From assembly GCA_035546535.1 (NCBI GenBank), contig DASZWQ010000181.1, positions 1 through 64,000 on the forward strand: 64,000 nt of DNA, in the 5' to 3' direction. Under the pieces are notes generated by a model. That model worked only from the letters and a program-made list of their open reading frames with translations. It had not been told where the DNA came from and ran no database searches. Made by a program: the position numbers and the translations under genes. The stretch is from Pirellulales bacterium (GTDB lineage: Bacteria > Planctomycetota > Planctomycetia > Pirellulales > JACPPG01). Positions 2-12,381 of this stretch are shown one piece after another. Each line of letters begins with the position of its first letter. Position 1 is the stretch's first letter.

Positions 2-1507
2 GGACGGCCTGACGGTGAACACATTGCCGTCACCGATCACAAGACCGCTGCTGCCGGCGCGCTGGAAAGCATCCAAGACCTGGCCGTGCAGGCCGCCCGA
101 CTGCACGCGCGCTACATCAACCCCGTGCTCGTGACGCTGACCGGAAAAAGCGGCGCGCTGAAGACGTTCGTCGCGGGCGAAGGTAACTATCTGCGCGACG
201 CCGAGGGGCGCCGCTACCTGGATCTTGTCTCGGGCTTCGGATCGCTGAACCTGGGGCACAATCATCCACGCGTCGTGGCGGCCATCCAATCGGCCTTGGC
301 CCAGCACGCGCCGGGCTTCGCGCAATCGGCGGTCAATCCATACGCGGCGGCGCTCGCCGAACAATTGATCCAGATCGCGCCGGACAGCCTGGAGATGGTG
401 TTCTTCGCCAACAGCGGCTCGGAAGCCGTCGAAGCGGCGCTCAAGCTTGCTCGCATCGCGACGGGGCGGGCGGGTTTTCTGCACTGCGACCGTTCCTACC
501 ACGGCAAATCGCTCGGGGCACTCTCAGTTACGGGCAATCCCAATTATCAAAAGCCGTTCGCGCCACTGTTGGCCGATTGCCAGGCCGTTCCGTTTGGTGA
601 TGTGGAGGCCTTGCACGCTGCACTGGAATCGCGGCGTTTTGCGGCTTTCCTCGTCGAGCCGGTGCAGGCCGAAGGAGGCATGATCGTCCCGCCCGACGGC
701 TACCTGCGCGAAGCGGAGCACGTGTGCCACGAGTTTGGCACGCTGTTGGTGGTCGACGAGGTGCAAACCGGATTGGGGCGCACGGGAGAGATGTTCGCGA
801 CGGATCACGACGGAGCTCGCCCTGACATCATGACGCTGGCCAAGAGCCTGGGGGGCGGGCTGATGCCGATCGGTGCCATGCTCTGCCGGCGTGATTTGTG
901 GCACAAGGCTTATGGTTCGCTACAGAATTTCGCGCTGCACACCAGCACGTTCGGCGGCGGCAGCCTGGCGTGCGCCGCGGGGCTGGCCGCGCTCAAAGTG
1001 CTGGCCGACGAAGATCTGGTCGCGCGCGGTCGGGCACGCGGGGAACAACTCCGCGCGGGGCTCGAGGGCATCGCCGAAAAATATCAGCTTGTCAAACAGA
1101 TCCGCGGCCGTGGACTGCTCTTGGGCATCGAGTTCAACCCGCTCCCCGACGCCATCATGACGCACTGGAAGCAGACCCAGGCCCAGGGCATCGGCGAGTT
1201 CATCGCGCCGCAATTGGGGGAATTGATCGAAAGCATTCCGGCCCTCTACACCATGCACAATCTGCTGCAAGAATTCGGCATCTACACGCAGGTCGCGCGC
1301 TCCCACGCCATGGTGCTGCGCATCCAGCCGCCGTTGACCATCACCGCCGAAGAGGTCGATCAAGTGCTCGCGGCTGTGGATCGGGTCATCGGCAGCATTG
1401 ATTTTGCCAAGAACGTCGTGAATGACCTGATCTCGAAATCGACGCTCGGCACGCACGAAGGGGGCAAAGATCGCAGCGGTCAGGCGATCGACCAGACGAT
1501 TGCTTGA
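2..1507 (+). CDS. Class III PLP aminotransferase, probably the C-terminal part of an acyl-ACP reductase-aminotransferase fusion (5' end outside window)
   Basis: The frame is open to the first base of the window with no stop, so the gene begins upstream. An internal GTG at 86 could start a 473-residue protein, but the 28 codons before it resemble the linker of the fusion gene at 7162. The visible part is a complete class III (ornithine/GABA-aminotransferase fold) enzyme. It has the GFGSLNLGHNHP substrate-loop motif, a NSGSEAVEAALKLAR phosphate-binding motif, the DEVQTGLGRTG motif, and the Schiff-base lysine in AKSLGGG at bases 842-844. By eye it is about 70% identical to the C-terminal half of the gene at 7162, including the closing segments VARSHAMVLRIQPPLTIT and VNDLISKS. 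The likely role is transamination of an aldehyde made by an N-terminal reductase that lies off the window. The domain is certain; the fusion is inferred from the paralogue and the open 5' end. Confidence 0.88.
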   Translation, partial: GRPDGEHIAVTDHKTAAAGALESIQDLAVQAARLHARYINPVLVTLTGKSGALKTFVAGEGNYLRDAEGRRYLDLVSGFGSLNLGHNHPRVVAAIQSALAQHAPGFAQSAVNPYAAALAEQLIQIAPDSLEMVFFANSGSEAVEAALKLARIATGRAGFLHCDRSYHGKSLGALSVTGNPNYQKPFAPLLADCQAVPFGDVEALHAALESRRFAAFLVEPVQAEGGMIVPPDGYLREAEHVCHEFGTLLVVDEVQTGLGRTGEMFATDHDGARPDIMTLAKSLGGGLMPIGAMLCRRDLWHKAYGSLQNFALHTSTFGGGSLACAAGLAALKVLADEDLVARGRARGEQLRAGLEGIAEKYQLVKQIRGRGLLLGIEFNPLPDAIMTHWKQTQAQGIGEFIAPQLGELIESIPALYTMHNLLQEFGIYTQVARSHAMVLRIQPPLTITAEEVDQVLAAVDRVIGSIDFAKNVVNDLISKSTLGTHEGGKDRSGQAIDQTIA

Positions 1508-1597: not shown

Positions 1598-2944
1598 TCA
1601 GAGGAGGTCGCCAGCGAGGCAGCCTTCGATCTGTCGAGAAAACAGACGCAACAGGTCTTCGGCTTTCTGGAGCGACAGGGATGGATCGCGGTGCATCGAG
1701 AGCGTTGTCACCGTCCCATGCGTGACGACGCCGAACGCCGCCGCCGTATGCGGGCGTAGCGGCGGCAGGAGCGCCAGACTCTGTAATCTCAACGGCCCAC
1801 GGCGGGCGTCGACCTCGATCGTTGCGTCCACCAGCGGCTCACCCAGGTTGCTGAGCACGCACGTCGCCAGACAGCGATCCGTCGGCAAGAGGCGCGGGAT
1901 GCGTCGGAGGCGCTGCGCCAGTCCCAGAATGTGATGAAACGCCAGGCCCAACCGGCAGCGTTTGACGATTCCCATTTCCAGCGACACCAGGCGCAGCAGT
2001 TTCGGCACGGTTGCCTTGGCATTCATGCGCCGATCGAGATTGATCATGCACACGATATTCGCAGCCGGTGTGGCATCGTCGGCCGGAAGGCGCAGATTCA
2101 TCGGCACCATCACGCGCGCGATTTTTCCAGCCGCATCCGGCTTATGCTCGGCAACCCAGTCGTGCAGCGCGGCAAACAAGCACGTGACCAGGAGATCGTT
2201 CACCGTGGCGCCGCGAGCGCGCGCCGCGCTACGCAGCTCTTGCAACTTCTCGGCGTCGAATTGATGCGATAACGAGAGCGGGCCGGCCGAGAGATCGGCC
2301 GCCTGGTCCTCCTCGTCGCTGTCATCAACCAGGCTCAGCGGCCGATGCGAATAGAATTCGACCACGCCCACCAGGGCCAGCAGTTCTTGCGGCAATCGCA
2401 ATAGCCGCCGCCACCAGGTAAGGCCGAACCGGCCGCGACGAGCCAGACGTGCGGGATCTACCGTGCGCAGGCGACTGCCACCGGCCGCTTCCACCAGCAT
2501 GGCGTAGGCGTTCAGGCAATCGTCGATGAAGCCGGCCGCGCCAACGCCATCGCAGCAGGCGTGATGAAATTCAAACCACAGCGTGGCGCGGTGCTCATCT
2601 CCACGCACCCAAATTCGCAGTCCCCGCTGTCGCCGCAGGTCGATCATCCGGCCCGCTGGAAAATCGAGCGGTTCGTCGGGGCCTCCCCAGGAGATCGCCG
2701 GCGGCGGCCCGATCTTTGCTGTCCAGTGGTAGCCCGCCGTCTCGTCCCCCTCGAGCAGGCGGCAGAGCAGCGGATGCCGCGGGAGCATATCGTCGACCGC
2801 TTGTCGCCAGACGTCGCGGTCGAGACGGCCCTGCACCTCGGCTTTCAACCAGAAGGTCATAGGCTGACGCGCGCGATCGTCGGCCAGCATGTACTCTTCG
2901 AACGGCGTCAGCGGCAGAAGAGAAGGAGAGAGCGTATCAGACAT
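1598..2944 (-). CDS. Free-standing condensation-domain / acyltransferase family protein (HHxxxDG)
   Basis: The 448-residue protein carries the HHxxxDG motif typical of the condensation / wax-ester synthase / PapA superfamily, as HHACCDG at residues 127-133. This sits in the usual place about 125 residues from the N-terminus, and the length fits a stand-alone member. The N-terminus (PLTPFEEYMLADDR) resembles the opening of these proteins, and a second conserved half follows with a DLLVTCLFAALHDW-type helix near the middle. Such enzymes join an activated acyl donor (CoA or carrier-protein thioester) to an amine or alcohol. No carrier-protein domain is attached. It lies on the minus strand between two paralogous aminotransferase genes, convergent with the first and divergent from the ligase at 3425. 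I infer that it makes the final amide or ester of this locus. Membership of the superfamily is fairly secure; donor and acceptor are not known. Confidence 0.75.
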   Translation of the reverse strand: MSDTLSPSLLPLTPFEEYMLADDRARQPMTFWLKAEVQGRLDRDVWRQAVDDMLPRHPLLCRLLEGDETAGYHWTAKIGPPPAISWGGPDEPLDFPAGRMIDLRRQRGLRIWVRGDEHRATLWFEFHHACCDGVGAAGFIDDCLNAYAMLVEAAGGSRLRTVDPARLARRGRFGLTWWRRLLRLPQELLALVGVVEFYSHRPLSLVDDSDEEDQAADLSAGPLSLSHQFDAEKLQELRSAARARGATVNDLLVTCLFAALHDWVAEHKPDAAGKIARVMVPMNLRLPADDATPAANIVCMINLDRRMNAKATVPKLLRLVSLEMGIVKRCRLGLAFHHILGLAQRLRRIPRLLPTDRCLATCVLSNLGEPLVDATIEVDARRGPLRLQSLALLPPLRPHTAAAFGVVTHGTVTTLSMHRDPSLSLQKAEDLLRLFSRQIEGCLAGDLL

Positions 2945-3424
2945 CGCTGCGCGGTTTTGAAATCCCCCGATGCTGTAAAGCCGCCGCCGTCGCAGCAGGA
3001 TGGGATGCTACCCCGCTTGCTGCTACTCGTCTAGATTCTCCAGATTTTCAGATTGGTAAAACAGATAATCATAACTCGTGCTTCTAATAGGAATCGTCGT
3101 GCTGTCGTTGGTCGAGGGTCCCCGTAAGTCGTTACGCTCCTTGACAATGCTGTGCAATTTATGGAAGATGGGCAACCTGTATTGAGCTAGGGAAGCTGCC
3201 GCCACGCACGAGACCGATGCAGCGCGTCGGGCCTCGCTCGCCAGCCAGAAACAAATCCACGGGCAGCCGACGCTGCTTCGCTTCGATCGCGAAACGAACA
3301 ATGATCGGTTTGCAGGTTTCCTGGGAGGTAAATCCAGGACACATCGATTACCGTTTGCACCTGCTCACGGACGTGAGGTGTGAGTGACAGCCTTGCACAC
3401 GTGCGTCTGCATTTGCAGGTACTT
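2945..3424. promoter_or_regulatory. Divergent intergenic region between the condensation gene and the ligase operon
   Basis: This 480-base gap separates two divergent transcription units, so promoters for both are expected here. Part of it (about 3030-3100) is clearly more AT-rich than the surrounding genes. A TTGACA box lies at 3141-3146 on the plus strand, but the hexamer at the expected spacing (around 3164) is a poor match to TATAAT, so I do not call a promoter. Small open frames on the minus strand here show no recognisable protein pattern. Confidence 0.3.
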
Positions 3425-4858
3425 ATGAGTGAGGATATTCGCCAGCGCTGGCGACAAGTTGTCCGCGAGTCGATGTGTCACGTCGACGCTCCCGCGGACG
3501 ACCGCTATTGGTGCCCGGAGCTCGAAACGGCTTCGCGCGACCAACTGCGCGCGCTGCAGCAAGAGCGCGTGATCCTCGCCTACCAGTACCTGTGGGAGTG
3601 CAGTCCGTTTTATCGGGCCAAGTTCGAGCGAGCCGGGCTCGCGGCCGACAGTATTCGTACGCTGGACGATCTGCCGAAAATCCCGGTCACGCGCCGCGAG
3701 GAATGGCTGGAAAACCAGGAAGCCAATCCCCCGTGGGGCACCTTTTCGCCGCTCCGCCAGGAGGATTGGACCGAACGCGGCTGGATGCTGTTCACCACGT
3801 CGGGCACGACCGCGGCACAGCCCCGAGTTTTCCGCCACACCACCCACGACCGCGACCTGTGGAGCTGGCTTGGCGCCCGGGCTTTGTACGCCATGGGGGC
3901 CCGCCGGGGCGACATTGCCATCAATTGCTTCGGCTATGGCACCTCGGTCGCCTTTTGGGGGCTGCATTATGCCCTGAACCTGATGGGCGTGCCGGTTATC
4001 TCGGGCGGAGGGGCGAATACCGAGCGGCGGGCGTTTTTCATCCAGACTTATCGCCCGACGATGTTACTTTGCACGCCCTCTTACGCTCTCTACCTGGGGC
4101 GCGTCATGCAGGATGCCGGCCATTCGCCACAAGAAAGCTCGATCCGCATGATCGTGGCCGCCGGCGAGCCGGGCCCCTGCGTTCCCAGCACCAAGAAACG
4201 CATCGAAGATCTGTGGCACGCCTCGCTGCACGACGACTTTGGCTGCACCGAAGTGGCCATGAGCCCGTTGGGCTACACCTGCCGCGAGCAGGTGCGACGC
4301 CCAGACGGCCAGGTCGACGTGCATTTGATGGAAGACGCCTACCTGCCCGAGGTCTTGCATCCCGAAACCATGCAACCGGTCGGGGCCGGCGAATCGGGGG
4401 TGCTGGTCGTGAGCAACCTGTTCAGCGAATCGCAGCCGATCTTGCGGTACGTGATGGGAGATTGGATCAGCGTGACGACCGAGCCTTGCCTGTGCGGCCG
4501 GACGCACGCCCGGGCCATCGGCGGCCTGAAGGGGCGCAACGACGAACTGATCAAGATTCGTGGCCTGATGTTCTTCCCCTCAGTGATCGAGGACGCCGTT
4601 CGCCGGCTGCCCGAGGTGGGGGATGAGTTCAAGATCGAGATTCGCCGGGTCGACGACATGGATCGCATCAAGATCACGGTGGAACCGAACTCGCAGATCC
4701 CCAAGGGGGACTACGCGACGCCGCAGCAGCGCATCGCCCGATCGCTGAAGGGTTCGCTGGGTATCGACGTCGACGTGGCCCTGGTGCCATTCGGCACGTT
4801 GCCGCGTACCGAGTTCAAGGCGAAGCGGCTGTTTGACCTGCGCGAGAAGGCCTTCTGA
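3425..4858 (+). CDS. PaaK-like acid-CoA ligase / adenylate-forming enzyme
   Basis: The 477-residue protein resembles phenylacetate-CoA ligase (PaaK) proteins. It has the N-terminal YQYLWECSPFYRAKFERAGL region, the P-loop-like LFTTSGTTAAQPR segment, a DDFGCTE motif, and the CLCGRTHARAIGGLKGRNDE plus IKIRG segments of the C-terminal half. The family activates an aryl or other carboxylic acid with ATP, giving an acyl-adenylate that is usually passed to CoA. I chose the ATG at 3425, which has CAGGT five bases upstream. A GTG at 3380 would add 15 residues but has its GAGG almost touching the start. The stop overlaps the start of the next gene (TGATG at 4856-4860), so translation is probably coupled to the pabB-like gene. 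That suggests, without proving it, that the substrate is an acid derived from chorismate. Confidence 0.85.
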   Translation: MSEDIRQRWRQVVRESMCHVDAPADDRYWCPELETASRDQLRALQQERVILAYQYLWECSPFYRAKFERAGLAADSIRTLDDLPKIPVTRREEWLENQEANPPWGTFSPLRQEDWTERGWMLFTTSGTTAAQPRVFRHTTHDRDLWSWLGARALYAMGARRGDIAINCFGYGTSVAFWGLHYALNLMGVPVISGGGANTERRAFFIQTYRPTMLLCTPSYALYLGRVMQDAGHSPQESSIRMIVAAGEPGPCVPSTKKRIEDLWHASLHDDFGCTEVAMSPLGYTCREQVRRPDGQVDVHLMEDAYLPEVLHPETMQPVGAGESGVLVVSNLFSESQPILRYVMGDWISVTTEPCLCGRTHARAIGGLKGRNDELIKIRGLMFFPSVIEDAVRRLPEVGDEFKIEIRRVDDMDRIKITVEPNSQIPKGDYATPQQRIARSLKGSLGIDVDVALVPFGTLPRTEFKAKRLFDLREKAF

Positions 4859-6408
4859 TGCACACCGCCAGCTCGACAACCATCGGCCGAGGCCAGCGGG
4901 CCGCGTTCCACCTCGTCACCGAGTTGGAGCTCGCGCACCCGTTCTGGCAATATCGCCGGCTGTACGAGTTCGAGCCGTATTCCTTCCTGCTCGATAGCGC
5001 GAAGGATCCGGAAAAGCTGGGCCGGTTCTCGTTCGTCGGTGGTGATCCGTTCCTGGTGTACAAGGCGAAGCGGCGCCTGCAGCCGGGCGCGCCGGCGACG
5101 GCGCGGATCGAAGTCACGCGCCGCCACGACGCCGAAGGGCGTCCGCTGGCCGCTCCCAAGGTTGAAACGCGCGAGGCAGACGTCTTCGACGATCTGCGCG
5201 CCTTGCTTGCCGAATCGTACGTCGACGTCGCTTGTTATGCCGATCAGCCGGTACCGCTGTTGGCCGGCGCCGTGGGCTACCTGGGGTACGAGGCGGGCTA
5301 CTTCGTCGAAGAGATGCCCGACCTCGGTGCTGACGACCTGGGAATGCCGGACGTTTATTTCATGTTCCACGACGTTCTGTTGGCTCATTGCCACCAGAGC
5401 GAGCGGTCGTTCCTGTCGGTCGTCGGGCGCGGCGCGACCGAGGAGCAGGCACGCGCGCGGGCCGAGCGGCTGCGCGACCAGATGCTCGCGCGGATCGAAG
5501 CCTTCGAGGCAGCCCCGCCCGATCTTGCCTGGTCGGGGCCGAATCCCCAGCGCGCCGCGGCGACGACGATCGACGTGAAATCGCATTTCGACCTGCCGGG
5601 TTACTGCGAGCTGGTCGAACGCTGCAAGGAACACATTTTCGCGGGGGATATTTTCGAGGTCTGTCTGACGCACCGGCTCGAAACCGAGCTGGTCGGCGAT
5701 CCGTGGGACCTGTATCAGGAGCTGCGGCGCATTAATCCGGCGCCGTTTGCATCGTTTTTGAACTTTCCTGAAGGGCACGTGATCTCGAGTTCGCCCGAGC
5801 GGTACGTCAGCCTGGGCGTGGACCGGGTTGCCGAGAGCCGGCCGATCAAGGGAACGCGCCGCCGCGGCGAGTCCGAAGCCGACGACGAGGCGATCTATCA
5901 AGAATTGTTCTCGTCGGTCAAAGATCGCGCCGAGAACGTGATGATCGTCGACCTGGTGCGCAACGATTTCGGCCGCGTCTGCAGGTTCGGCAGCGTTCAC
6001 GTGCCCGAGCTGATGATCGTCGAACCGTACGCCACGGTGTTCCAGATGGTGTCGACCATACGCGGCGAGCTGGACGAAGGACTCGATGCGCTGGATCTTT
6101 TGCGGGCTTCGTTCCCCGGAGGATCGATGACCGGCGCGCCCAAGATCGAGGCCATGAAAATCATCGACCGGCTGGAGCCGGTCAAGCGCGGCATCTACTC
6201 GGGCGCGATCGGCTATCTCGATTTTTCGGGCGTGATGGATTTGTCGATCGTGATCCGTACGCTGGTCGAGCGCAATGGCCGTTGCTACTTCAACGTCGGC
6301 GGCGCGATCGTGGCTGACAGTGTTCCGCAGGCCGAGTATTACGAAACGCTCGACAAGGCGCGAGCTTTGATTACGGCCGTGAAGAATTTGAAGGCTTGCC
6401 AGATGTAA
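4858..6408 (+). CDS. pabB: Aminodeoxychorismate synthase component I (PabB-like chorismate-binding enzyme)
   Basis: The 516-residue protein belongs to the TrpE/PabB chorismate-binding family. It has a TrpE-type N-terminal domain and the C-terminal block with DRAENVMIVDLVRNDFGRV, SFPGGSMTGAPKI and YSGAIGYL. The motif PIKGT around Lys331 is informative. Aminodeoxychorismate synthases carry Lys in PIKGT, whereas anthranilate synthases usually have Ala (PIAGT). The product is therefore probably 4-amino-4-deoxychorismate, the precursor of p-aminobenzoate, rather than anthranilate. It starts inside the stop codon of the ligase gene and is followed after 21 bases by the glutaminase subunit. No aminodeoxychorismate lyase (PabC) is present in the window. 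The gene could serve folate synthesis, but its position in this locus suggests supply of an aromatic building block. Confidence 0.88.
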   Translation: MHTASSTTIGRGQRAAFHLVTELELAHPFWQYRRLYEFEPYSFLLDSAKDPEKLGRFSFVGGDPFLVYKAKRRLQPGAPATARIEVTRRHDAEGRPLAAPKVETREADVFDDLRALLAESYVDVACYADQPVPLLAGAVGYLGYEAGYFVEEMPDLGADDLGMPDVYFMFHDVLLAHCHQSERSFLSVVGRGATEEQARARAERLRDQMLARIEAFEAAPPDLAWSGPNPQRAAATTIDVKSHFDLPGYCELVERCKEHIFAGDIFEVCLTHRLETELVGDPWDLYQELRRINPAPFASFLNFPEGHVISSSPERYVSLGVDRVAESRPIKGTRRRGESEADDEAIYQELFSSVKDRAENVMIVDLVRNDFGRVCRFGSVHVPELMIVEPYATVFQMVSTIRGELDEGLDALDLLRASFPGGSMTGAPKIEAMKIIDRLEPVKRGIYSGAIGYLDFSGVMDLSIVIRTLVERNGRCYFNVGGAIVADSVPQAEYYETLDKARALITAVKNLKACQM

Positions 6409-6429: not shown

Positions 6430-7032
6430 ATGGTAAATATGAAGACCGTCATCCTCGATAACTACGACTCGTTCACCTTCAACCTCTATCAATACATAGG
6501 GGAAACGGATGAACGGCCGCTCGTGTTTCGCAACGACAAGATTTCGTTCGACGAACTGACGCAGCTTGCGCCCGACCGGATCATTATCTCGCCCGGGCCC
6601 GGCAGCCCCGAGGATCCCGCGTATTTCGGCATCTGTCGGCAAACGATCCTCGAGTTGGGGCCGACGATTCCCATCCTGGGCGTCTGCCTGGGGCACCAGG
6701 GAATTATCTATTCGTTGGGGGGACGCGTGATCCGCGCTCCGGAAGTGATGCACGGCAAGACGAGCTACGTGTATCACAACGGCAACACGATGTTTCGCGA
6801 AGTGCCCCGCGCGTTCGAGGCCATGCGTTATCACTCGCTGGTCGGCGATCCGACATCCCTCCCCGATTGCCTGGAGGTGACGGCCAAAACCTGGGACGAC
6901 GTGATCATGGCCGTGCGCCATCGCGAGTATCCGATCTACGGGATCCAATTCCATCCCGAATCGATCGGTACTGCCGTCGGCAAGCAATTGCTGCGCAACT
7001 TCCTGCACGGCGATCACGGAGGTCGAAATTAG
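6430..7032 (+). CDS. pabA: Glutamine amidotransferase subunit of aminodeoxychorismate/anthranilate synthase
   Basis: This 200-residue class I glutamine amidotransferase supplies ammonia from glutamine to the chorismate-converting subunit encoded just before it. It has the N-terminal DNYDSFTFNLYQY signature of TrpG/PabA, the oxyanion-strand motif IISPGPGSPEDP, the nucleophile in GVCLGHQG (Cys86), and the His-Glu pair in GIQFHPESI. Length is normal for a stand-alone subunit. Two ATGs (6430 and 6439) are possible and differ by three residues. A 6-bp inverted repeat, CGCGCG with a GAATTT loop, sits at 6412-6429 directly before the first ATG and covers the likely ribosome-binding bases. It could mask initiation, but in GC-rich DNA this may be chance. 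Co-location with the pabB-like gene makes the assignment firm; folate versus secondary metabolism is undecided. Confidence 0.88.
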   Translation: MVNMKTVILDNYDSFTFNLYQYIGETDERPLVFRNDKISFDELTQLAPDRIIISPGPGSPEDPAYFGICRQTILELGPTIPILGVCLGHQGIIYSLGGRVIRAPEVMHGKTSYVYHNGNTMFREVPRAFEAMRYHSLVGDPTSLPDCLEVTAKTWDDVIMAVRHREYPIYGIQFHPESIGTAVGKQLLRNFLHGDHGGRN

Positions 7033-7161: not shown

Positions 7162-9855
7162 ATGAAATTCGCCTTCCTGATTCACCCGCTCTCTGACGAG
7201 ACCAACTACGTCCTCCATTTCGGCGGCGACGCGCTGCAAAACCGCTGGGGGACCGACCCGGTGGGCTTTTGTCGCGCCGTACACGAGGCTGTCGGATCGT
7301 ACGAAGACGTGCTCACCGAAGACATCGTCGAGGCCAATCGCGTGGCCGACGAGATGGCCGGGCTCGTTTCGCTCCGCGGCGCGCAGGCCGACGGCCGGTT
7401 GTACGAGATTCCGCTGGATGCCATGCGCATTCTGGAAGAGCCAGCCCGCGCCATGGAGTTCATGGAGCAGGCCGTGGAAATGGCCGCGCAGTGGGGGGCG
7501 AAAGTCGTCGGGCTGGGTTCAATGACGGGAGTCGTCGGTGGTCAAGGCAAATACCTGTCCGAGCGCAGCCCGGTTCCTGTGACCACAGGCAACAGCCTGA
7601 CCGTTTTCGCGGCCATCGAGAACGTCCATCACGCGGCCGCCGAGCTGGAAATCGACTTGCGGCACGAAACCGTGGCCGTGGTCGGCGTGCCAGGCAGTAT
7701 CGCCACGGCGTGCGCGAAATTGCTCGCACCGCATTGCGGGCATTTGATTCTCGTCGGGCGGCGCCCCTCGGATCGAGCGAGCGCGCTGGCCCAGGAACTG
7801 GGCGCCTCCCTGGAATTCGACATCGCCACGGCGGTCGCTCGGGCGAAGATCGTCGTCTCGGCCACTTCGGCCGGGCATTGCATCGAGCAGGCGATGCTCA
7901 AGCCGTGGAGCGTCGTGGTCGACGTCGCCATTCCGACCGACATTTGCGAATCGCACGCCACGCGCGACGACGTGCTGGTCCTCTCGGGCGGACTGACGCA
8001 GATTCCCGATTGCATGCCGCGCACCAGCAAATTCCTGTGGTTCCATCACGGCATGATTCCCAGTTGCCTGGCCGAAACCATGGTGCTGGCCTTGGAAGAG
8101 CGCCCCGAATCGTTTTCGCTCGGCCGCAGCCTGGACGTGGACAAGATCAACGAGATCGGCCGTATCGCCAAATCGCACGGCTTCGATTTTTCGCGGTTTT
8201 TCTCGTTTGGGCTGCCGCTCGATGATTCGGCGCTTATCCGCTTTCGCAAAGCGAATTCGCGACTGGTGCGTCGGCCGTCGTCGGCCAAACTATTGCCAGC
8301 GCGAAACGGCAACGGCCATGCGAATGGCCATTCACCGTCCGGTGGAAGCAATGGTCTGCACGCGGGTGCAAACGGCGCAACCAACGGCATTACGCACGGT
8401 GCGGAACACGCAAAAGAGCCGGCCAAGATCGTCGACCTTGCCGGCCGCGCCGAAAAGCTCTTCGCCCGGCACATGAATCCCGTGCTGGTGGCGCTCGGAG
8501 GCAAGGGGGGCTTCGTCAAAACGTTCGTGCGCGGCGAGGGATCGTACTTGTGGGATGCCGACAACGTTCCCTATCTCGATTTCGTCTCCGGCTTCGGGTC
8601 CGTCAATCTCGGGCACAATCACCCGGCGGTCGTCGCCGCGGTGAACGACGCGCTGCGGCAACAGGCGCCGGGCTTCGCGCAATCGGCGGTGAATCCCTAC
8701 GCGGCGCAATTGGCCGAAGAGTTGGTGAGCATCGCCCCGCCAGGGCTGGAGATGGTCTTCTTCTGCAACAGCGGCACCGAATCGGTCGAGGCTGCCCTTA
8801 AGCTCGCACGGAAATCCACCGGACGCGCCGGCCTGTTGCACTGTGATCGATCGTTCCACGGCAAGTCGCTCGGGTCGTTATCGATCACGGGCAATCCCGA
8901 ATACCAAAAGCCGTTCGGTCCGCTATTGCCCGGCTGTGAGAGCATTCCGTTTGGCGACGTGGCCGCTCTCGAGCAGGCATTGAGCACGCGACGCTTCGCG
9001 GCGTTCGTCGTCGAGCCGATCCAGGCCGAGGCGGGCATGGTCGTGCCGGGCGATTACTTCCTCCGTCAGGCACAAGAACTGTGCCGCGCTCACGGCACCC
9101 TGTTGATCGTTGACGAAGTGCAGACCGGCATGGGGCGCACCGGGTCGATGTTCGCGGTCGATGCGCTGGGCGTCGAGCCGGACATCATGACGGTTGCCAA
9201 GAGCCTGGGCGGCGGACTGATGCCGATTGGCGCCATGCTCTGCCGACGCGACTTGTGGCACAAAGCCTACGGCAGCCTGGAAACGTTTGCCCTGCACACC
9301 AGCACGTTTGGAGGAGGGAGTCTGGCATGCGCCGCCGGGCTAGCGGCGATCCGCGCGATTCGCAACGAGGACCTGGTGGAAAACGCCGTCGCTCGAGGTC
9401 GCCAATTGCACGAGGGGCTCGCCCGCCTGGTGCAGGAATCCGAAGTGCTCAAGGAAGTACGCGGGCGTGGCTTGCTGTTGGGCCTCGAGTTTCAGCCGCT
9501 GCCGCATGAGATTTCGGCCGCCTGGAAAGCCGTCGACGAAAGCGGCCTGATGCCGTTTCTTGTCCCCAAGCTCGACGACCTGATCGACAACATTCCCGCC
9601 TTGTATGCGATGCAAGTGCTGCTCGACACACACGGCATTTACACGCAAGTCGCTCGCTCGAACCCGTTGGTGCTGCGAATTCAGCCGCCGCTGACCATCA
9701 CGAGCGAACAAGTCGAACAGTTCCTCAATGCCTTGGAAAAAGTCGCGAGCGAGTGGGAACTGGGCACTCACGTCATGTCGACCGTGATTAGCAAATCGGT
9801 CATCGGGCACCACGATGCCGCCGAGCGGCATCGCGGTCCCGTAGCGGCCAAGTGA
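7162..9855 (+). CDS. Bifunctional AAR-like fatty acyl-ACP reductase fused to a class III aminotransferase
   Basis: The 897-residue protein has two enzymes in one chain. Residues 1 to about 375 resemble cyanobacterial long-chain acyl-ACP reductase (AAR). They contain a GSMTGVVGG segment, the TGNSLTVFAAIENV motif, a Rossmann motif GVPGSIA at 175-181, the LVLSGGLT strand, and SCLAETMVLALEE with Cys302. By alignment from memory Cys302 falls on the thioester-forming Cys294 of the Synechococcus enzyme. A flexible linker rich in Asn, Gly, His and Ala covers about 382-425. Residues about 430-880 are a class III PLP aminotransferase with the lysine of AKSLGGG at 680. I infer that the first half reduces acyl-ACP to an aldehyde and the second transaminates it to a primary amine. 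Upstream are the pab genes (129-base gap) and downstream an exporter (42-base gap). A paralogue lies at the window start. Confidence 0.9.
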   Translation: MKFAFLIHPLSDETNYVLHFGGDALQNRWGTDPVGFCRAVHEAVGSYEDVLTEDIVEANRVADEMAGLVSLRGAQADGRLYEIPLDAMRILEEPARAMEFMEQAVEMAAQWGAKVVGLGSMTGVVGGQGKYLSERSPVPVTTGNSLTVFAAIENVHHAAAELEIDLRHETVAVVGVPGSIATACAKLLAPHCGHLILVGRRPSDRASALAQELGASLEFDIATAVARAKIVVSATSAGHCIEQAMLKPWSVVVDVAIPTDICESHATRDDVLVLSGGLTQIPDCMPRTSKFLWFHHGMIPSCLAETMVLALEERPESFSLGRSLDVDKINEIGRIAKSHGFDFSRFFSFGLPLDDSALIRFRKANSRLVRRPSSAKLLPARNGNGHANGHSPSGGSNGLHAGANGATNGITHGAEHAKEPAKIVDLAGRAEKLFARHMNPVLVALGGKGGFVKTFVRGEGSYLWDADNVPYLDFVSGFGSVNLGHNHPAVVAAVNDALRQQAPGFAQSAVNPYAAQLAEELVSIAPPGLEMVFFCNSGTESVEAALKLARKSTGRAGLLHCDRSFHGKSLGSLSITGNPEYQKPFGPLLPGCESIPFGDVAALEQALSTRRFAAFVVEPIQAEAGMVVPGDYFLRQAQELCRAHGTLLIVDEVQTGMGRTGSMFAVDALGVEPDIMTVAKSLGGGLMPIGAMLCRRDLWHKAYGSLETFALHTSTFGGGSLACAAGLAAIRAIRNEDLVENAVARGRQLHEGLARLVQESEVLKEVRGRGLLLGLEFQPLPHEISAAWKAVDESGLMPFLVPKLDDLIDNIPALYAMQVLLDTHGIYTQVARSNPLVLRIQPPLTITSEQVEQFLNALEKVASEWELGTHVMSTVISKSVIGHHDAAERHRGPVAAK

Positions 9856-9897: not shown

Positions 9898-12381
9898 ATG
9901 GCGACACGTCGGCCGGACTCCCGACATTCGCCCGCAGTGTTTCCTTTGGACGTGCCAGCAGCGAGGTTCCACGTTTTGTTTTTCGAGCGCTATAGCAAGA
10001 TCATTCTGGGAGCAGCGATTCTCGTGCTGCCGGTGCTGGCGTATGGCGCGATCAGGGCTGCCGGCACGAATCGTAACGACGTCAAGGACTGGCTGCCCGA
10101 AACGTTCCAGGAAACCCAGGACTATCACTGGTTCCAGAAGCACTTCGAGAACGAGACGCAGGTGCTTGTCAGTTGGCCCGGCGCGACGCTCGAAGATCCG
10201 CGCGTGGAAAAGTTCGCCCGCCTGGTCGATGCGCGCCGTAGCGGCACAGACGGGCCCATCGACACGGCGCTCTTTTCCACCGTGCTCACCGGGCCCGAGG
10301 TCGTCGAGCGACTGACCAGGGCGCCTGTGAATCTCACACGTGCCGAGGCCGCGGCGCGGTTGGCCGGAGTGCTGGTCGGCAAGGATCATCGGCAAGTCAG
10401 CGCCGTGGTATCGCTTTCGCCGAAAGGGCAAGTCGACCTGCACGACACGCTCGCGCAGCTCGAAAAGGCCGCCGAGATGGCCACTGGCCTGAGCGCGCGT
10501 GACATCTACATGGGCGGGCCGCCGGTCGACAACGTGGCGATCGACGACGAAAGCGCAGGCACGCTGCGATACCTGGCTGGCTTGTCTGCGCTCACGGGCC
10601 TAGGGCTCGCCTATTGGTGCATGCGGCAGTGGGGGCTGACGGTTCTGATTTGCACCGCCGCGGTGTATAGCGCGCTGGTGGCCCTGGCCATGGTCTATTT
10701 CACCGGCAACATGATGGACGCCATCATGTATTCCATGCCGCCGGTCGTGTACACCGCGGCCCTGTCGGGCGCGATCCACATCATCAACTACTATCGTGCG
10801 ACGGTAGGAGAAGGGGGTCGCGCAGGCGCCGCGGGTCGCGCGCTGCGCCGCGCCTGGCTGCCGTGCATGTTGTCGGCCATGACGACGGCGATCGGGCTCG
10901 GCTCGTTGTGCATCAGCGAGCTGGTGCCGATCCGCCTGTTCGGGTTTTATTCCTGCCTGGGCGTGCTGTGCACGCTCGCGCTGTTATTCACTTGCGTGCC
11001 GGCAGCTTTGCAGCTCTGGCCGCCGCGTCCGGTCGCTCCGCCAGCCATCCATCCCTGGGACGAACCGACGGATGGACGCTGGTTTCATCGGTTGGGTCTG
11101 AAGCTTGCCTGGGGGATTGTCGGGCACCATGCGCTCGTCATTCTGGCTTTTGCCACCACGCTTGTCGGCTTGGGGATCGGAGCGCGGTACGTAAAGACGT
11201 CGGTCTCGATCGCGAATCTCTTCTCGCCCGAGGCTGAGCTGGTGCGCAAATACGAGTGGCTGCAGGAGCACCTGGGCGGGCTGATTCCGATGGAAGTCAT
11301 CATCCGCTTCGACAATCGCGAGAATCAGCAGTCGTTCCTCGAAAGGTTGACGCTGGTCGATCGCATCGAACGGCACCTGGTTGCGCTGCCCGAGGTGAGC
11401 AGCTCGATGTCACCCGTGACCTTTGCACCCAGCCTCGACCAGCCGGTGTCCAGCGGCGGCCGCGGGGCCTCGAAGGCGATGCAGCGGCTGCTCGTGCGAA
11501 ATCCCGAGCGTGTCCGCCAGGACGTGCTCAACAAGCAGCTTTTGAAGAGCCGCGCGGAATTCGAATCGAGCGACTATCTCAGCCGCGATACCGCTGACGG
11601 GAACGACGAAGAGGAATGGCGCATCAGCCTGCGCCTGCTCGCGGACGAAGACGTCGACTACGGGCTGTTCGTTCACGAAATCGAGCGACAGGTGGAACCG
11701 TTTCTCGACGCGGCGAACGATCCCGACGTGCGCGGGGCCTCGGCCCTCTACACAGGAGTCACGCCAGTCGTTTACAAGGCCGAACGGGCGCTGCTCAACG
11801 GGTTGATCGAAAGCTTTTTCACCGCCTTTCTGATCATGGCCGCGGTGATGGCGATCGTTTACCGCAGCGTGCTGGCCGGTCTACTTGTGATGTTCCCGAA
11901 CGTATGGCCGATGGCGGTCGTGTTCGGCTACTTGGGCTACGCCGGAGCCGTGATTGACATCGGCACCATGATGACGGCCAGCGTCGCCATGGGCGTGTCG
12001 GTCGACGATGCGGCCCACTATCTGACCTGGTTTCGTTTCGGGATCGGCCGTGGCTACGACCGAAAGACAGCCGCTGTGTTTGCGTATCGCAACGCCGCCG
12101 TGGCCATGGCGCAGAGCTCGATCATCGTCGGCTTAGGGCTGGCCGTGTTCGGCTTCAGCTCGTTCGTGCCGACCAAGATGTTCGGTCTGCTTATGCTGTT
12201 GCTCTTGGCCTGGGGGCTGTTCGCCGACCTGGTGCTGCTGCCGGCGATTGTGGCCGGCCCCCTGGGGCGCTTTTTCACGCGCGGCGTCAGGCCAGACATC
12301 GTGCATAGGCCGGACGAGGTATCGGGAGGCGGCGAGCTGGTGGGCGCTGGCGCAATCGCGGACAAGAGCGCTACTCAGTAG
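9898..12381 (+). CDS. RND superfamily / MMPL-type exporter
   Basis: The 827-residue membrane protein has the duplicated RND/MMPL layout. There is one N-terminal transmembrane helix (about residues 35-56), a large external domain with a WFQKHFENE segment, a block of about five helices (roughly 225-380), a seventh helix near 410-435, a second external domain, and a final five-helix block (about 640-800). Both helix blocks contain sterol-sensing-domain-like segments such as YTAALSGAIHIINYY and MTASVAMGVSVDDAAHYLTWF. The latter has the paired acidic residues seen in proton-driven members. MMPL proteins move lipids and lipid-like products out of the cytoplasm. It follows the reductase-aminotransferase gene closely on the same strand, so it probably exports the product of the locus. 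A hopanoid or general lipid role cannot be excluded. Confidence 0.85.
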   Translation: MATRRPDSRHSPAVFPLDVPAARFHVLFFERYSKIILGAAILVLPVLAYGAIRAAGTNRNDVKDWLPETFQETQDYHWFQKHFENETQVLVSWPGATLEDPRVEKFARLVDARRSGTDGPIDTALFSTVLTGPEVVERLTRAPVNLTRAEAAARLAGVLVGKDHRQVSAVVSLSPKGQVDLHDTLAQLEKAAEMATGLSARDIYMGGPPVDNVAIDDESAGTLRYLAGLSALTGLGLAYWCMRQWGLTVLICTAAVYSALVALAMVYFTGNMMDAIMYSMPPVVYTAALSGAIHIINYYRATVGEGGRAGAAGRALRRAWLPCMLSAMTTAIGLGSLCISELVPIRLFGFYSCLGVLCTLALLFTCVPAALQLWPPRPVAPPAIHPWDEPTDGRWFHRLGLKLAWGIVGHHALVILAFATTLVGLGIGARYVKTSVSIANLFSPEAELVRKYEWLQEHLGGLIPMEVIIRFDNRENQQSFLERLTLVDRIERHLVALPEVSSSMSPVTFAPSLDQPVSSGGRGASKAMQRLLVRNPERVRQDVLNKQLLKSRAEFESSDYLSRDTADGNDEEEWRISLRLLADEDVDYGLFVHEIERQVEPFLDAANDPDVRGASALYTGVTPVVYKAERALLNGLIESFFTAFLIMAAVMAIVYRSVLAGLLVMFPNVWPMAVVFGYLGYAGAVIDIGTMMTASVAMGVSVDDAAHYLTWFRFGIGRGYDRKTAAVFAYRNAAVAMAQSSIIVGLGLAVFGFSSFVPTKMFGLLMLLLLAWGLFADLVLLPAIVAGPLGRFFTRGVRPDIVHRPDEVSGGGELVGAGAIADKSATQ

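Follow-up and report, generated by a model that had tools for sequence, protein, structure and literature searches.

We analyzed a 64,000-nt stretch of DNA (the window), which is the very beginning of a contig in a draft genome of 210 contigs, and compared it with Pirellulales-type metagenome-assembled genomes of the Planctomycetota. The genes of interest are arranged as FUS2, converging on a condensation-type acyltransferase gene on the opposite strand, followed by LIG, pabB, pabA, FUS1, and an MMPL transporter gene, all reading forward. Their coordinates in the window, with the supporting evidence in parentheses, are as follows:

2..1507, + strand: FUS2, 3' portion of another fusion gene, 881 aa when joined (contig overlap, joined translation)
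1598..2944, - strand: condensation/WS-DGAT-like acyltransferase with an HHxxxDG motif, HHACCDG (profiles)
3380..4858, + strand: LIG, PaaK-type acid:CoA ligase (profiles)
4858..6408, + strand: pabB, PabB-type aminodeoxychorismate synthase component I (PIKGT motif, TIGR00553)
6430..7032, + strand: pabA, PabA/TrpG-type glutamine amidotransferase (profiles)
7162..9855, + strand: FUS1, fusion of an AAR-type thioester reductase with a class III aminotransferase, 897 aa (ORF, profile match, orthologues)
7162..8280, + strand: N-terminal AAR-like reductase domain of FUS1, residues 1 to 373 (profiles, motifs, fold)
7684..7704, + strand: Rossmann motif GVPGSIA, residues 175 to 181 (motif)
8065..8067, + strand: catalytic Cys302, within SCLAETM at residue 301 (motif, alignment)
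8281..8436, + strand: poorly conserved linker rich in Gly, Asn, His, and Ala, about residues 374 to 425 (alignment, low model confidence)
8449..9759, + strand: class III aminotransferase domain (profiles, best solved relative)
9199..9201, + strand: PLP-binding Lys680, in MTVAKSLGG (motif)
9898..12381, + strand: MMPL/RND (HAE3-like) transporter (profiles)

In the ORF listing of the window, FUS1 is intact, beginning with an ATG and encoding a single chain. Its orthologues are 88%, 78% (a partial sequence), and 75% identical within the same genus and 50 to 60% identical in other families. The presence of full-length orthologues (50 to 88% identity) in other genomes, together with a conserved start (MKFAF...), argues that the frame is not a chance one.

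Both halves of the chain matched the model of PigE, the prodigiosin enzyme, in profile searches (residues 64 to 367 with an E value of 1e-76 and residues 430 to 864 with one of 1e-146). Residues 140 to 342 also matched the model of the acyl-ACP reductase AAR (TIGR04058; 1e-24), the score of 87.4 bits lying below the curated cutoff of 449.7. When sequences of solved structures were ranked against the reductase half, PigE (4ppm, 1e-50) came before AAR (6jzq, 1e-15, matching the same residues 140 to 342), and glutamyl-tRNA reductase followed. A TTGNSLT motif is present at residue 141. A full-length structure predicted from 5 sequences was of low quality (pLDDT 53), and the reductase domain modeled alone, from nine sequences of the window and related loci, reached a pLDDT of 81. 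The latter model turned out to have the AAR fold, superposing on solved AARs with Z scores of 32.6 to 33.5 over 317 residues (for 6jzy, Z 33.5 and rmsd 2.9) and on the carmabin pathway's AAR-like "TAD" with Z scores of 31 to 32, while all other folds gave 14 or below.

In the alignment, Cys302 coincides with the AAR nucleophile C294 and with C296 of PigE, and a cysteine occupies this position in 39 of the 41 homologous domains examined. It is lost only in two paralogues, both located beside a condensation-type acyltransferase gene (L055:1241-3856 in G048, contig C188, and L085 in G089, contig C168). These carry Ala or Asp instead, which suggests a reductase-dead form retained for transamination. 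As for the C-terminal half, its Aminotran_3 domain is complete (5.5e-100), its closest solved relative is again PigE (4ppm), and Lys680 is invariant among its relatives. The initial annotation, made from the letters alone, had described one chain pairing an AAR-like reductase with a complete class III aminotransferase and had named GVPGSIA, SCLAETM with Cys302, and Lys680. The two domains and all of these residues were recovered in the same places, and the kinship with AAR that it had proposed is borne out by the profile and structure-sequence matches, by the alignment of the cysteine, and by the superposition at Z 33.

FUS2 lies across a break in the assembly. The ORF at 86 to 1507 stays open to the first base of the window, while contig C98 of the same genome (G000) ends in an AAR-like domain that runs off the contig, the last 141 bases of which (L060:18328-18468) are identical to window bases 1 to 141. 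Given this exact 141-bp overlap, we consider C98 and the contig of the window (C181) to be adjacent, the assembly having broken inside FUS2. The join is supported by synteny with G003, where the order is a class IV aminotransferase gene, the condensation gene, LIG, pabB, pabA, FUS1, and the MMPL gene, with no FUS2. The joined FUS2 is 59% identical to FUS1 along its whole length and keeps the Rossmann motif (as GIPGSIA), TTGNSLT, and the cysteine. The ORF at 86 to 1507 was thus rejected as a standalone second aminotransferase, being the end of a fusion divided between contigs. The class IV aminotransferase encoded upstream of FUS2 is not supported as a dedicated PabC, since an orthologue is present in 21 of the 21 genomes searched, whether or not they have the fusion; in G089 a different class IV aminotransferase gene adjoins LIG, and in G048 there is none at that place.

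LIG probably starts at the ATG at 3425, as its relatives begin at Met16, and its stop codon overlaps the start of pabB by 1 nt, an overlap also seen in relatives. The pabB product scored 363.6 against TIGR00553 (cutoff, 328.4) and carries PIKGT, which we take to mark the PabB type. The genome has one other TrpE-family gene, 42% identical to pabB, so pabAB may also be the source of 4-aminobenzoate (PABA) for folate. The condensation-type gene, which is divergent to LIG in G002 and G003 too, encodes a candidate amide-forming enzyme. The MMPL/RND transporter is a candidate exporter, and a relative of it (31 to 33% identity) is encoded divergently to the fusion in G006, G041, G057, and G079. Neither an acyl carrier protein gene adjoining the fusion nor a TamA (ANL-ACP) partner at the window locus was noticed.

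The reductase domain was found, patchily and nearly always in a frame of fusion length, in 20 of the 396 sampled Pirellulales genomes. LIG orthologues were present in 7 of the 396, each of which also has the fusion, and a 352-aa GNAT, first noticed beside the fusion in G004, G258, and L044, was present in 9, eight of them with the fusion. Counted by genus, the co-occurrence with the fusion gave hypergeometric P values of 3e-4 (LIG) and 9e-5 (GNAT), which are rough because of shared ancestry. A genome of the same genus, G001, is without the fusion, LIG, and the GNAT and has kept pabAB; its pabAB (contig C164, L128) adjoins a fragment of a KR/DH polyketide synthase and a gene for a phosphopantetheinyl transferase.

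LIG, pabB, and pabA are contiguous in five genomes from two families. Other arrangements include FUS-LIG-GNAT without pab (G258), LIG-pabB-pabA-GNAT with the fusion on another contig and the LIG/pabB overlap still kept (G089), and GNAT-FUS (G658/L044). The fusion gene lies beside the MMPL gene in G000, G003, G006, G041, G057, and G079 and beside a FemAB-like gene in L046, G048, G089, and G053, and a second fusion gene lies beside a condensation gene in G000, G048, and G089. That these genes are shuffled in order yet inherited together points to one pathway. Several genomes have the fusion without a LIG orthologue (G006, G015, G020, G041, G057, and G079), and for this reason other conjugates, or the free amine, are possible as products. 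The gene of the 352-aa GNAT and a FemAB-like gene also form a conserved pair away from the fusion, co-inherited with it (G000:C107, L176:5924-8350; G002; G003; G148).

Outside the class to which the window belongs, most planctomycete matches have the aminotransferase first, as in TamH of tambjamine biosynthesis. Planctomycete fusions in this order are found at L062:10785-13421, L133:8458-10956, and L138-L153. The order also occurs within the Pirellulales, in G053, where the gene adjoins a FemAB-like gene, and in G269, so both domain orders exist in one phylum. The very long N-terminal frame extensions at such fusions in other planctomycetes contained no Pfam domain and may be noncoding open frame. 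A stand-alone AAR-like protein of about 360 aa is encoded in a low-GC planctomycete (G741:C107, L164:9043-10140). Three genes away is that of a protein starting MEIVKRRVVVTGLGVVSPIG, presumably beta-ketoacyl synthase-like, and the locus may represent a gene cluster for a lipid or a polyketide.

Taken together, the data identify FUS1 as a well-supported variant of the PigE/TamH enzyme type, and our overall reading, to which we assign a probability of roughly 0.7, is that it is an amine synthase of this type whose product is then probably amidated and exported. Judging from homology and the intact catalytic residues, FUS1 likely converts an acyl thioester to an aldehyde and then to an amine. In the N-terminal domain, Cys302 would accept the acyl chain of a pantetheine carrier (ACP or CoA), and the chain would be reduced with NAD(P)H; the aldehyde would probably be handed between the domains and be transaminated by the C-terminal PLP domain (Lys680) to a primary alkylamine. 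FUS2, as a paralogue, would be a bifunctional enzyme of the same type. We infer a fatty chain as the substrate of FUS1; this chain may be other than plain and long, since PigE reduces a branched C8 keto-thioester.

A different proposal casts the fusion as the source of a pyrrole precursor, the role of true PigE in prodigiosin biosynthesis, where a keto-thioester is reduced and transaminated and the product then cyclizes. PigE is indeed the closest curated family (NF053554; 747 bits over residues 64 to 864), with an identical domain order, but the score lies under the curated cutoff of 850, and, unlike for PigE, no PigD-like ThDP enzyme, PigB, or other prodigiosin gene is found among the annotated neighbors in the window or in the relatives, which makes such a function highly improbable. 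Also highly improbable is a protein with an inactive or purely regulatory reductase half, leaving an aminotransferase acting on a free aldehyde or polyamine. The two Cys-less paralogues near a condensation-type gene show that such loss occurs, and the aminotransferase half also resembles putrescine aminotransferases; against this, FUS1 and FUS2 both have the catalytic cysteine (Cys302 in FUS1), the Rossmann motif, and TTGNS intact, and the cysteine is retained in nearly all homologous domains.

LIG might activate the acyl substrate for the fusion, as TamA does for TamH (PMC9594044), with PabAB only a neighboring folate operon. This would fit the adjoining fusion and LIG genes of G258, where pab is missing, and the fact that LIG never occurs without the fusion. 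However, LIG is PaaK-like, a family known mostly for aryl and small acids, its overlap with pabB is kept in several genomes, including G089 with its fusion on another contig, and several fusion genomes do without it, so that we regard this role as rather unlikely. In our preferred reading, the amine would probably be amidated by a linked acyltransferase; the gene association gives about even odds that one of the three types (condensation type, GNAT, or FemAB-like) acylates it. The acid would be activated by the linked PaaK-type ligase and could possibly be 4-aminobenzoate from the co-operonic PabA/PabB. As LIG sits in the PABA operon, an aryl acid of this kind is conceivable, and we advance it only tentatively: the nearness of pabAB may be incidental, this being likely the folate PABA operon, present also in the fusion-less G001. 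Export of the amide by the MMPL pump is plausible. Exported amides of a fatty amine and an aryl acid, made by LIG and an acyltransferase, would be an undescribed class of alkylamine derivatives in some Pirellulales, a doubtful prospect at present. The literature search found nothing relevant on planctomycete fatty amines or PABA-alkylamine ligases.

What is new here is FUS2, split across contigs, and the company of fusion, ligase, PabAB, acyltransferase, and exporter genes in Pirellulales, a planctomycete gene set that is undescribed and looks as if made for coupling an amine to an acid and exporting the product. FUS1 adds a well-separated planctomycete branch to the small family of one-chain thioester-to-amine catalysts, which are of interest for producing fatty amines from fatty acids, and its recurrent gene company leads to the concrete, testable prediction that a phylum with little-explored small molecules makes a lipid or natural product of the amide type.

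The domain pair itself is already known. The initial annotation had known of no described system with it and had placed the tambjamine reductase in a different family; both points proved incorrect. PigE was described in 2021 as an N-terminal thioester reductase homologous to acyl-ACP reductases followed by a class III aminotransferase; a lysate of cells expressing it converted the thioester to the transaminated product, while the purified enzyme gave no such reduction in vitro (PMC8341465). TamH joins an aminotransferase to a reductase that is described as AAR-type and has a GxxGxxG motif and a catalytic cysteine, and together with TamA it converts the C12 lauric acid to dodecylamine with NADH (PMC9594044). 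The expectation that FUS1 would make primary amines from acyl thioesters is strengthened by these precedents. PigE of Serratia agrees with FUS1 in its two domains and their order, gives the best match for each half, and aligns in its catalytic Cys and PLP Lys; the reductase halves are 39% identical over 300 aligned residues, and the linker and the N-terminal 60 residues differ. PtTamH of Pseudoalteromonas tunicata (tambjamine YP1), which makes fatty amines from acyl-ACP (PMC9594044), has the same two domain types in the order opposite that of FUS1. Cyanobacterial AAR shares the fold and the position of the cysteine with the FUS1 reductase, with about 32% of 201 aligned residues identical, but stands alone and passes its aldehyde to ADO, whereas FUS1 carries the aminotransferase on the same chain.
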